A stretch of DNA of 49,613 nucleotides, taken from positions 1 through 49,613 of the forward strand of contig CAIYTF010000185.1 in NCBI GenBank assembly GCA_903929035.1, given 5' to 3'. This DNA is from an uncultured Ignavibacteriales bacterium (lineage in GTDB: Bacteria > Bacteroidota > Ignavibacteria > Ignavibacteriales > Ignavibacteriaceae). Of the stretch, positions 9,878 through 41,167 are shown one piece after another. Both the position numbers and the translations under genes were made by a program. Numbering within the stretch: the first letter of the stretch is position 1; the number at the start of each line of letters is the position of its first letter. The notes beneath the pieces were generated by a model that was given only the letters and a program-made list of their open reading frames with translations, ran no database searches and was not told the DNA's origin.

Positions 9878-11044
9878 TCAAAGACTCTTCATTCCTGTTT
9901 CAATTTCTTCGCAGACACGGGCAAATACCTCTTCAAAAGACCCAAGACCATCAATTGAGGTAACACCAATAGTTTGCCTGTATTTATTGATAACCGGTAC
10001 AGTTTTAATTTCGTGTTCTTTTAATCGGCGGACAATTTGCTGAATGCTGTTATCATACTTCAGCACTTCTCCTGATTTACCTCTTTCATCAAGACGCAGT
10101 ATTAAATCAAGGGGCGGAACGACAAGGTCAATAATCTTTGAAATATGTGTATCGTGCTTTTGCAGCATTCCATCAAGTATATATGATTGCACCAGCGTGC
10201 GCGGAAATCCCTTAAAAATGTAGCCTTTCACGTTTTGATTCATATCAAGCCGCTTTTCAATTATGTCAACCACTACTTCATCAGGCACGTGTTCACCGGC
10301 TTCATAAGCTGTTCTTATTGCTTTCCCGATGGCTGTATTAGTATTTATTTCCTGTTCAAGAATCTGTCCGGTAGCTATATATTCAAATCCGTATTTTTCT
10401 AACAGTGCCTTGCCGTGATAGCCTCGCCCCGACCCCGGATATCCGAACAGCAGTATGTTATACCTGCGTTTGCTCAAGATAACTTCAATTACTTTTTCAA
10501 TTTCTCCGGTTACAACCGCTACATCTTTAGTACCATCAACTTCAAAAAAAATGCCCTTTTCTTTGTAAAAATTCATTACAGGGATGGTCTTATCGTGATA
10601 CTCTTTTAACCGCTGCCTGATAACTTTTTCGTTATCATCCGCTCTGCCTGAGTTTTCACCGCGTTTTAACAAACGTTGAACTGAAATTTCTTCCGGCACG
10701 CCTATGCTTATAAGGCAGCTTAGCGAAGTATGCAGCTTAATCATCAGTCCTTGTAAAATATATGCCTGCACGTAAGTACGCGGGAAACCGTCAAATAGGA
10801 ATCCGTTTGCATCGGGATTTTCCTTGATGGTATTTTCGATAATCTGCACAATTATTTCATCTGAAACTAATTGACCGGCTACAATAAATACTTGAGCCTC
10901 TTTCCCAAGTTTAGTCTTGTTGGCGATCTCTTTACGAAGAAGCTCCCCTGTTGAGATGTAGAATAGTTTATATTTATTAATGAGGAATTCAGATTGGGTA
11001 CCTTTTCCTGCTCCCGGCGGTCCAAATAATGCAATGTTCAGCAC
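9878..11044 (-). CDS. adk: Tandem adenylate kinase: active domain fused to a pseudokinase domain
   Basis: Adenylate kinase interconverts ATP + AMP and 2 ADP. Residues 1-192 form a complete kinase of the short (no zinc LID) type: P-loop GPPGAGKGTQ (K14), AMP-binding STGELLRKEI (R37), FDGFPRT (R89) and GRADD...RQRLKEYH arginines. Residues 195-388 repeat the fold, but key residues are lost. The P-loop is GYPGSGRGYHG (K to R207), the AMP-site arginine is replaced in ATGQILEQEI, FDGFPRT becomes FKGFPRT, and the GRADD arginine is gone. A normal adk is 180-220 residues, so 388 is a duplication-fusion. The start is GTG, with no better ATG nearby. A TAAATTTG -7-like box lies about 105 bases upstream (11147-11154, minus) without a clear -33. 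Confidence 0.9.
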   Translation of the reverse strand: MLNIALFGPPGAGKGTQSEFLINKYKLFYISTGELLRKEIANKTKLGKEAQVFIVAGQLVSDEIIVQIIENTIKENPDANGFLFDGFPRTYVQAYILQGLMIKLHTSLSCLISIGVPEEISVQRLLKRGENSGRADDNEKVIRQRLKEYHDKTIPVMNFYKEKGIFFEVDGTKDVAVVTGEIEKVIEVILSKRRYNILLFGYPGSGRGYHGKALLEKYGFEYIATGQILEQEINTNTAIGKAIRTAYEAGEHVPDEVVVDIIEKRLDMNQNVKGYIFKGFPRTLVQSYILDGMLQKHDTHISKIIDLVVPPLDLILRLDERGKSGEVLKYDNSIQQIVRRLKEHEIKTVPVINKYRQTIGVTSIDGLGSFEEVFARVCEEIETGMKSL

Positions 11045-38658: not shown

Positions 38659-39582
38659 TCAATACCGCCGGGTTTGTTTCGGGTTTCTTGAATTTACATA
38701 AACCGTGTCTTTCTCACTCCATAGAAACAAAACTGAATCAGTCGAAATGACTTCTCTTCCGTTATCATAGTAAACAAACTCGTAATAGTCAGGGAACTTG
38801 TCTTTATTTCCATCGGTAAAAATTCTTTTACGGTCAATTGCATCGTATGTTTCCAAACGGTGAGGCATAGAAGTAAGTCCGTTAATCAAGAAATAATTGT
38901 AATCATCGTGTCCGGAATACCGGGCATCGTGGAAGTTCACACGCACGTAAGGAATATTTTTTCCTTTCCACATTTCCATTGAAATACGGTTAAAGCCGCC
39001 GTGAATGGGAACTGTGTCTTCCCAAAGAACGCTGAATTCGCCTCCGGCGTATTTATATAATGACAAAAAGAAAAATGCAGTTCCCAGCCGCGTACTGTCA
39101 AAATCAATGTAACTCTGATCCCATCCTATAACATTTTTCTTTTCAATAAATCGCTCCTCACCGCCTTTTGATTTTGCAATAAGACCAAGTACATACATTC
39201 CATCAGACTGTTTTAGATATATTACCGCGGATTGCGGGATATTATAGGTATAAGTACGATCAAAATCGACAAGGTAAGTTCCTTTGGGATATTTATTCAA
39301 CACGTATTCCATCAAATCGATAGTATCACCGGCAAACCGTGAACGGGCACGCTCTTTTCGTACTTTTAGATTAAATTCTTGAATACTTTGGTCATTAGCT
39401 GCATCATAAGCAACTTCTCTTTGAGCGGAAGGATCGCCTGCAGATGCAGTTTTTTCGGGGGATTTACCCGCTACAAAATCAATGAAACTTTTTCCCGAGC
39501 AGGACTTAAAAATAAACCAGAAAATAACCAAGGCTATTATTATTCCGCCATATACCAAAACTCGTTTAATCGTTTGACTCAA
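38659..39582 (-). CDS. Membrane-anchored hypothetical protein
   Basis: A single N-terminal helix (residues 8-25, VLVYGGIIIALVIFWFIF) is followed by SCSGKS and a polar linker. The globular part (from ~60) is rich in tyrosine, aspartate and lysine with beta-type stretches (TYNIPQSAVIYLKQSDGMYVLGLIA, VRVNFHDARYSGHDDYNYFLINGL). I recognise no domain. There is no ATG; the start appears to be TTG (TTGAGTCAAACG) with GGAG further upstream. It precedes ispE by 45 bases in the same direction. It probably faces the periplasm. Confidence 0.7.
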   Translation of the reverse strand: MSQTIKRVLVYGGIIIALVIFWFIFKSCSGKSFIDFVAGKSPEKTASAGDPSAQREVAYDAANDQSIQEFNLKVRKERARSRFAGDTIDLMEYVLNKYPKGTYLVDFDRTYTYNIPQSAVIYLKQSDGMYVLGLIAKSKGGEERFIEKKNVIGWDQSYIDFDSTRLGTAFFFLSLYKYAGGEFSVLWEDTVPIHGGFNRISMEMWKGKNIPYVRVNFHDARYSGHDDYNYFLINGLTSMPHRLETYDAIDRKRIFTDGNKDKFPDYYEFVYYDNGREVISTDSVLFLWSEKDTVYVNSRNPKQTRRY

Positions 39583-39700: not shown

Positions 39701-39736
39701 AAAAAAAAATGCCGCGGTATAAGGAAACCGCGGCAT
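39701..39736 (-). terminator. Strong intrinsic terminator with no annotated upstream gene
   Basis: On the minus strand a perfect ten-base-pair stem, ATGCCGCGGT (39736-39727) with ACCGCGGCAT (39718-39709), loops over eight bases and is followed by nine T residues. The stem is mostly G+C. It must end a minus-strand transcript coming from 39740-40320, a region in which no protein gene exists on that strand. It lies about 120 bases upstream of the start of the membrane-anchored gene. Confidence 0.85.
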
Positions 39737-39858
39737 ACATATCAGGGTTCAATAATGAACCACGTAAAGCCTATTTATTTGATTGATGTTAATCACTCCT
39801 TCCAATTTGTGAATGAAAGTATAACAGAGCTTTCTTTTCAGAACAAAGCCCAAAGCCT
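39710..39858 (-). ncRNA. Candidate small RNA (about 150 nt), unknown class
   Basis: The interval between the -7 box at 39865-39872 and the terminator at 39701-39736 has the layout of an independent small transcript on the minus strand. It contains GGTTCA-TTAT-TGAACC, a second perfect hairpin just before the terminator. An SD-like GGAAGGAGT with AGGCTTT 22 bases after it lies inside the interval. The same pair occurs once upstream: GGAAGGAGT overlaps the -7 box, and its AGGCTTT, 13 bases on, lies at the predicted 5' end. No ORF longer than about 12 codons is present. It does not match 6S RNA, tmRNA, SRP RNA or a riboswitch that I recognise. The boundaries are predicted only. Confidence 0.5.
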
Positions 39859-39864
39859 GTATAA

Positions 39865-39895
39865 CAAAAATACTCCTTCCTGATAAGTTAATAAA
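39865..39895 (-). promoter_or_regulatory. Possible promoter of the candidate small RNA
   Basis: On the minus strand TTTA (39895-39892) is followed after 19 bases by TATTTTTG (39872-39865), a TAnnTTTG match with a one-base change in the -33 element. Alternatively a sigma70-like TTGTTC-N17-TATACT lies further downstream (about 39848-39820). Confidence 0.45.
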
Positions 39896-40321
39896 AAATA
39901 CTTTTCTAAGAACAGAGACAACGAGGATTAACCTCGGATGATACTCGATAAAGTTTCACAACATTTAAGAGTACAGGCACAACTTAGCATTTACTTTTAT
40001 CAGATGCAAGTAATTATATCTAAGGTCATAAATTTTTACCCTATGGTAATTCTTTCGTGTCTTTTCAGCATCCGGTTGATAACCGAATCCGTGGTTGTTT
40101 AGCAAAGTCGAAACAACGCTGCCGCGTTTTGAATTCTCCACACGTTACCTAAATTTCAAAGAGGATTCTAATTTTGATGGAATCTGTAAGTTAGCCCTTG
40201 AATTCAATTATACTAAAAGCTGCTATTTGATTTTAAAAATTGTTATTGAGAAATCACACTATTTGTATTACTTTTCTATGCAGTAATTAATAAAAGAAAG
40301 TGAAAAAGTAACGGTAATTTG
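39896..40321. other. Intergenic region before CheR, no gene seen
   Basis: This region has a small hairpin CGAGG-TTAA-TCCTCG (about 39930-39947) and CGGTT-ATC-AACCG (about 40072-40084). A 63-codon frame at 40095-40286 begins TTG and has no ribosome-binding site; I do not regard it as a gene. The CheR promoter should lie at its right end but no clear box is visible. Confidence 0.5.
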
Positions 40322-41167
40322 ATGATTCAGAAAATCAAAAACATTTCGGATCTGGTTTTGCGGTTGCAGGGTATTGATATTTCCAAATACGAACAGTCTT
40401 TTCTAAAAAATTCTATTCAGAAAAGAATCAAAGATACTTCTTGTGACTCATTTAATGAGTATTTTATATTTATTGAGCAGAGCGATGAAGAAGCAAAATC
40501 ATTTGTAGATTCACTTCATAACAGTTATAGCGATTTTTTTCGTAATCCGCTTACATTTGCAGTATTAGAACGCATCATACTGCCGGCACTTGTTTTGAGA
40601 ATAGCAGGCTCCAAGCTAAAAAAAGAGATAAGAATTTGGTCGGCTGCAACTGCCGCTGGGCAGGAAGCTTACAGTCTTGCTATCTTGCTGGAAGAGCTAA
40701 AAAATGGTGAACCTAATAAATTCGCTTACCGTATTTTTGCCACCGATCAATGTGATGTCCAAGTGAATAAAGCTCGGATTGGTAATTATTCTCCTGATGA
40801 ATTAAGTAATCTGAATATGAAACGCTTAAATAAATGGTTTCTTAAAGAAGGGGAGATTTATACTGTGAAGCAGGAGTTAAAAGAAAATATTGATTTTTCT
40901 GTGTTTGATTTGTTTAGTGAACAATTAAGTTCTCCGCCTGCAAGTATTTTTGGTGGTTTTGATATCGTAATTTGTGCCAATCTTTTGTTTTATTACAAAA
41001 ACGATTACAGAGAAATGATAATTAAAAAAATTTACAGCTCTTTAGTAAAAGGAGGACTTTTAATTACCGGCGAATCAGAAAGAGAAATATTGATGAATCA
41101 TAACTGCGAAGAAATATTCCCGCGATCGGCGATATTTAGAGTATTGAACCGTACCCCAATCTTTTGA
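40322..41167 (+). CDS. CheR-type protein-glutamate O-methyltransferase
   Basis: The N-terminal domain has KIKNISDLVLRLQGIDISKYEQSFLKNSIQKRIKD, and SYSDFFRNPLTFAVLERIILP is the CheR family linker. The SAM-binding motif IRIWSAATAAGQEAYSLAILLEE corresponds to WSAACSTGEEPYSLAM, with Q in place of the first acidic residue. DIVICANLLFYYKNDYREMIIKKI is motif for the catalytic fold. CheR methylates receptors, but no MCP or CheA lies nearby. A CheB remnant lies at the right end of the window. The start is the ATG at 40322; a TTG at 40319 is in frame. Confidence 0.88.
   Translation: MIQKIKNISDLVLRLQGIDISKYEQSFLKNSIQKRIKDTSCDSFNEYFIFIEQSDEEAKSFVDSLHNSYSDFFRNPLTFAVLERIILPALVLRIAGSKLKKEIRIWSAATAAGQEAYSLAILLEELKNGEPNKFAYRIFATDQCDVQVNKARIGNYSPDELSNLNMKRLNKWFLKEGEIYTVKQELKENIDFSVFDLFSEQLSSPPASIFGGFDIVICANLLFYYKNDYREMIIKKIYSSLVKGGLLITGESEREILMNHNCEEIFPRSAIFRVLNRTPIF

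Follow-up and report, generated by a model that had tools for sequence, protein, structure and literature searches.

The question raised by this locus is which transcript, if any, comes from a 736-base ORF-poor gap whose minus strand carries a strong terminator with no protein gene ahead of it. The gap lies in contig C185 of a 3.36-Mb Ignavibacteriales genome, whose sister species within the genus is known from an uncultured Ignavibacteriales MAG; the window, i.e. the whole stretch of DNA that was analysed, comprises 49,613 nucleotides of this contig. The gap is flanked by a 307-aa gene (38659-39582, minus strand, start at 39582), which lies downstream of the candidate RNA on the same strand, and by a divergent, upstream gene for a CheR-type methyltransferase (40319-41167, plus strand, start at 40319; Pfam CheR and CheR_N), whose closest relatives show only about 30% identity. 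The 307-aa gene, with ispE behind it, belongs to no Pfam family and is conserved across the order, being present in 85 of the 97 genomes. As the initial annotation had noted, no minus-strand ORF precedes the terminator: none of at least 60 aa with an ATG, GTG or TTG start was found on that strand of the gap, where the longest stop-to-stop frame adjoining the terminator spans 68 aa (39749-39955). A second RNA that the plus strand of the gap might encode was no better structured than shuffles. Elsewhere in the window, a 388-aa ORF (9878-11044, minus strand) resembles, by eye only, tandem adenylate kinase domains, the second P-loop being altered (GYPGSGRG).

Since strong start and stop signals are found about 160 bases apart and no protein gene is present, the gap most likely gives rise to one small non-coding RNA, which is probably encoded by its own, independent intergenic gene on the minus strand. 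The stop signal is an intrinsic terminator (39701-39736, minus strand) made of a perfect 10-bp stem (39736-39709), whose arms ATGCCGCGGT/ACCGCGGCAT pair perfectly, and of nine T (39709-39701), just as first described. None of 3000 dinucleotide shuffles of the gap yielded a terminator of such quality. Genome scans for terminators and promoter sites covered 1.35 Mb of the organism's own genome on both strands, that is 2.7 Mb of strand. In these 1.35 Mb, 52 terminators of the same quality were found, most of them closely behind an ORF or a tRNA. Inspection of the remaining ones showed that one follows the 5S rRNA and another a small-protein gene, and several of the leftover orphan terminators had a promoter-RNA-terminator layout. 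Two of these units turned out to be conserved, covarying multi-copy RNA families, and a strong orphan terminator is therefore, in this genome, a good indicator of a genuine transcript.

Concerning the start signal, a TAnnTTTG-type promoter had been proposed about 160 bases before the terminator, and a box of this type, TATTTTTG, is indeed located at 39872-39865 on the minus strand, 128 bases upstream of the terminator stem. Because 0.7 bare TAnnTTTG motifs are expected by chance on the minus strand of the gap, the box alone is uninformative, and a promoter model was thus built independently of the candidate, using 22 first-in-operon tRNA upstream regions from the same genome. This model converged on T-T-(T/G), a fixed spacing and TA(A/T)(A/T)TTTG, which corresponds to a Bacteroidota-type promoter; the TAnnTTTG promoter has been described for Bacteroides (PMC7366714). 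The best site of the model in the gap consists of TATTTTTG as -7 element and of the -33-like element TTTTA (39892-39896, minus strand) at the preferred spacing, with a score of 11.1, within the range of the organism's own tRNA promoters. Shuffling reached this score in 22 of 1000 cases for the 736-nt strand and, with dinucleotide shuffles, in 9 of 2000 cases for the 224 nt that precede the terminator. Only 49 sites score at least as high in the 1.35 Mb, both strands included: 30 are within ORFs and presumably due to chance, and each of the 19 intergenic ones is closely followed, on the correct strand, by a gene, a tRNA or a terminator. Also, the tRNA upstream regions (L086-L115) of Ignavibacteriales display TAnnTTTG together with a TTG/TTT element at a fixed spacing, so this promoter type is not restricted to the Bacteroidetes proper.

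Promoter model, terminator and lack of an ORF together delimit a predicted small non-coding RNA of about 155-160 nt (39701-39860, minus strand), with a start at about 39858-39862. Its predicted 5' hairpin, GGGCUUU/AAAGCUC (39827-39851, minus strand), appears in both the RNAfold MFE and centroid structures, and the GGTTCA/TGAACC hairpin reported earlier (GGTTCA-TTAT-TGAACC) is perfect in both sequence and fold, at 39761-39746 on the minus strand. The folding z-score of the whole RNA is -3.6, a value due to the terminator; the body alone folds slightly better than shuffles (z = -1.3) and is not significantly structured. The proposal of an independent small RNA is supported as regards a promoter-to-terminator unit beyond chance, devoid of a recognisable ORF and of an antiterminator, and is not supported as regards a structured body.

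The initial annotation had also pointed to GGAAGGAGT/AGGCTTT pairs. Both GGAAGGAGT copies are where they had been described, one internal (39795-39803) and one before the transcript, within the promoter spacer (39872-39880), each followed by an AGGCTTT (39772-39766 and 39858-39852, respectively), all on the minus strand. They are the only two copies of GGAAGGAGT in the window, for 0.25 expected. The GGAAGGAGT...AGGCTTT arrangement, twice and in this order, was reproduced by 16 of 3000 shuffles, in a test that was picked after the repeat had been seen. The special role suggested for these pairs did not hold up: since the first GGAAGGAGT sits in the spacer and would not be transcribed from this promoter, and since the two pairs are spaced differently (13 vs. 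22 bases between their members), the repeat is unlikely to matter and is probably incidental. A CRP/FNR-like palindrome, TGATGTTAATCA, is also present within the transcript (39784-39795), such sites numbering four in the window vs. 1.4 expected.

Computation established the promoter match and the terminator, as well as the absence of both an ORF and relatives; that the RNA is transcribed is inferred. Transcription would be started at about 39860 by the housekeeping sigma factor, using TTTT(A)-N-TATTTTTG as promoter, and would be stopped at about 39701 by the terminator, acting constitutively. The resulting RNA, 155-160 nt long, would have its 3' end shielded by the terminator hairpin. The AU-rich unpaired stretches (about 39800-39815 and 39773-39782) would be the likely contacts with target mRNAs; a trans-acting RNA pairing with mRNAs through these stretches is the most likely mode of action. 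In a target scan by simple duplex energies, the candidate performed no better than 15 shuffled RNAs.

In line with the earlier statement that the candidate matches no known RNA class, no Rfam family reached its gathering score when searched at gathering and relaxed thresholds, and the weak matches rest on the terminator region. The best relaxed match is NsiR1 (RF02399), with 33.7 bits over the last 60 nt of the candidate for a gathering score of 39. NsiR1 is a cyanobacterial RNA, which the candidate matches only through its generic terminator hairpin region, and under threshold. The 6S RNA model (RF00013) does not match the candidate either; its sole match in the genome lies elsewhere, at C106:8851-9057 (plus strand; L068), under threshold (30.3 bits, E = 3e-4, gathering score 46.4), and may be a divergent Ignavibacteriales 6S RNA. 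The SRP RNA (RF00169) of this genome is also located elsewhere (C38:171-267).

A blastn search in 40 relatives yielded no homologue, the two best matches being chance ones in coding-looking sequence, and no match to the candidate was found in plasmids and phages. The covariance search that the initial annotation had proposed as a check was run with a single-sequence model of the body and gave nothing below an E-value of 1, either in 80 genomes of the family or, with laxer filters, in 30 relatives. Given no Rfam match at curated thresholds and no homologue in the 80 family genomes, the RNA appears lineage-specific. With no homologue at the sequence or covariance-model level, selection on its sequence or structure cannot be demonstrated.

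The initial annotation had held that loss of the RNA where the flanking genes are kept would speak against it. The RNA is absent from every relative searched, sister species included. In most relatives, the usual neighbour before the 307-aa gene is an M20-type dipeptidase gene, which has been lost here while cheR was gained; in the sister species, a RhuM-like gene and a partial xanthine-dehydrogenase-like gene, both named by sequence reading, lie upstream of the 307-aa gene. The neighbourhood of the gap has thus been rearranged in the candidate's lineage, so the sister is not a clean case of loss between two retained flanks, and the absence of the RNA there says little on its function. The RNA may well have arisen or been acquired in the candidate's lineage.

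Such a distribution is familiar from the Bacteroidota. The candidate lacks a recognisable coding frame and has an organism-type promoter and an intrinsic terminator of its own, as expected of an intergenic sRNA. In B. thetaiotaomicron, Northern blots confirmed the eight candidates with both features that were tested, and strain-specific RNAs make up 27 of the 49 high-confidence intergenic sRNAs (PMC7366714), so that finding a lineage-specific sRNA should come as no surprise. The candidate resembles these sRNAs (PMC7366714) in its TAnnTTTG promoter, length, terminator, intergenic position and lack of ORF; they belong, however, to another bacterial class, and the Ignavibacteriales candidate is predicted from its sequence. 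GibS, a trans-acting Bacteroides sRNA, has a similar layout, with its own promoter and terminator between genes, but its targets are known and it is found throughout as a conserved RNA within Bacteroides. As many bacterial small RNAs are confined to one lineage, the candidate is credible but ordinary.

Four other readings of the locus were weighed. In the first, the transcript would serve the 307-aa gene (and ispE) as a 5' leader, with attenuation at the terminator and regulated read-through into the gene 127 bases further on. The 307-aa gene is indeed close by on the same strand, and the genome has a leader-like RNA class with a terminator just ahead of start codons. Also, the stretch between terminator and gene has no strong tRNA-type promoter (best score 5.1), although protein genes of this genome commonly score near 5 (median 5.7 for 126 divergent gene upstream regions). 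The attenuation that the initial annotation had itself set against its reading is made less likely by the lack of a competing antiterminator: the best competing pairing reaches -9.6 kcal/mol vs. -19 kcal/mol for the stem, and the terminator pair probability is near 1. Furthermore, nothing of the leader is conserved, it is absent before the 307-aa orthologues, and most relatives have the M20-type dipeptidase gene in front of them. As a whole, a leader is unlikely.

Translation of the transcript into a very small protein, for instance from the 68-codon frame, would fit with the way this open minus-strand frame closes (stop 39749-39751) only 12 bases before the terminator, with GGAAGGAG as a possible Shine-Dalgarno sequence, and with the other strong terminator that sits behind a small-protein gene. 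However, no ORF of at least 40 aa starts with ATG, GTG or TTG, the promoter box leaves a large part of the frame upstream of it, a Pfam search of the frame gave no match, and the matches in relatives are weak, many of them crossing stops; an mRNA is considered very unlikely. Little credence is given to a leftover terminator, belonging to a gene lost in the rearrangement and ending no functional RNA. The changed upstream neighbour and the lack of conservation would agree with it, but the stem is still perfect, most of the relatives' dipeptidase/307-aa junctions lack a comparable terminator tract, and it would have to be a coincidence that a promoter of tRNA grade stands in the right orientation and at a sensible distance. 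The least probable reading makes the RNA the first member of a new regulatory RNA type confined to a young lineage, with, for example, the SD-like GGAAGGAGT titrating ribosomes, a regulator or another RNA. An independent small RNA thus remains the preferred explanation.

Three further kinds of units were encountered in the same scan of this genome (G000). On contig C10, a promoter (score 12.7)-to-terminator unit of about 80-100 nt (L125:6684-6787, plus strand) has no same-strand ORF and no Rfam match. An RNA family of about 100 nt has two hairpins with C-rich, anti-Shine-Dalgarno-like loops (UUUCUCCCC and UUCCCCCC). Its four copies in the genome are at C5:7068-7170 (plus; L120), C160:16100-16201 (minus; L070), C73:20689-20790 (minus) and C222:1987-2089 (minus). 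It was found in 25 of the 41 Ignavibacteriales genomes searched, with up to 11 copies and a tandem triplet in the sister species (L204). Covariation is strong, with 94.7% of cells paired and double changes in 20 of 25 pairs, while slid controls fail. No Rfam family matches it at gathering score, and as its resemblance to ar14 and anti-hemB stays under threshold, it appears to be an Ignavibacteriales equivalent of C-rich sRNAs covering Shine-Dalgarno sequences.

The third is a 147-nt structured RNA class with eight copies in this genome, at C17:5250-5397 (minus; L132/L223), C52:192-333 (plus; L166/L227), C110:4131-4272 (minus), C198:22284-22428 (minus), C101:20170-20311 (plus), C154:223-364 (minus), C214:1049-1184 (plus) and C36:2143-2275 (minus), and seven in three relatives (L224-L226, L228, L229, L231 and L233). 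It has no meaningful Rfam match and its covariation is strong (double changes in 25 of 37 pairs). The AGGA of the closing stem is also part of the 5' arm of the terminator that follows, which makes the two structures look mutually exclusive, and about half of the copies have an SD-ATG start within about 70 bases. The genes behind it code for surface/repeat proteins (beta-propeller, FG-GAP, fibronectin and CsgG-like), response regulators and a radical SAM protein. Anatomically, the class looks like a riboswitch or an attenuator.

A literature search on small RNAs of Ignavibacteria returned nothing specific. In the genome analysed here, TAnnTTTG-type promoters are found before the tRNAs of a member of the Ignavibacteriales, and pairing them with strong terminators locates RNA genes. 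The candidate is a single lineage-specific RNA; the same approach pointed to two conserved families without a curated Rfam match. These two multi-copy, covarying families are more interesting than the candidate itself, and the 147-nt riboswitch-like class merits separate study.
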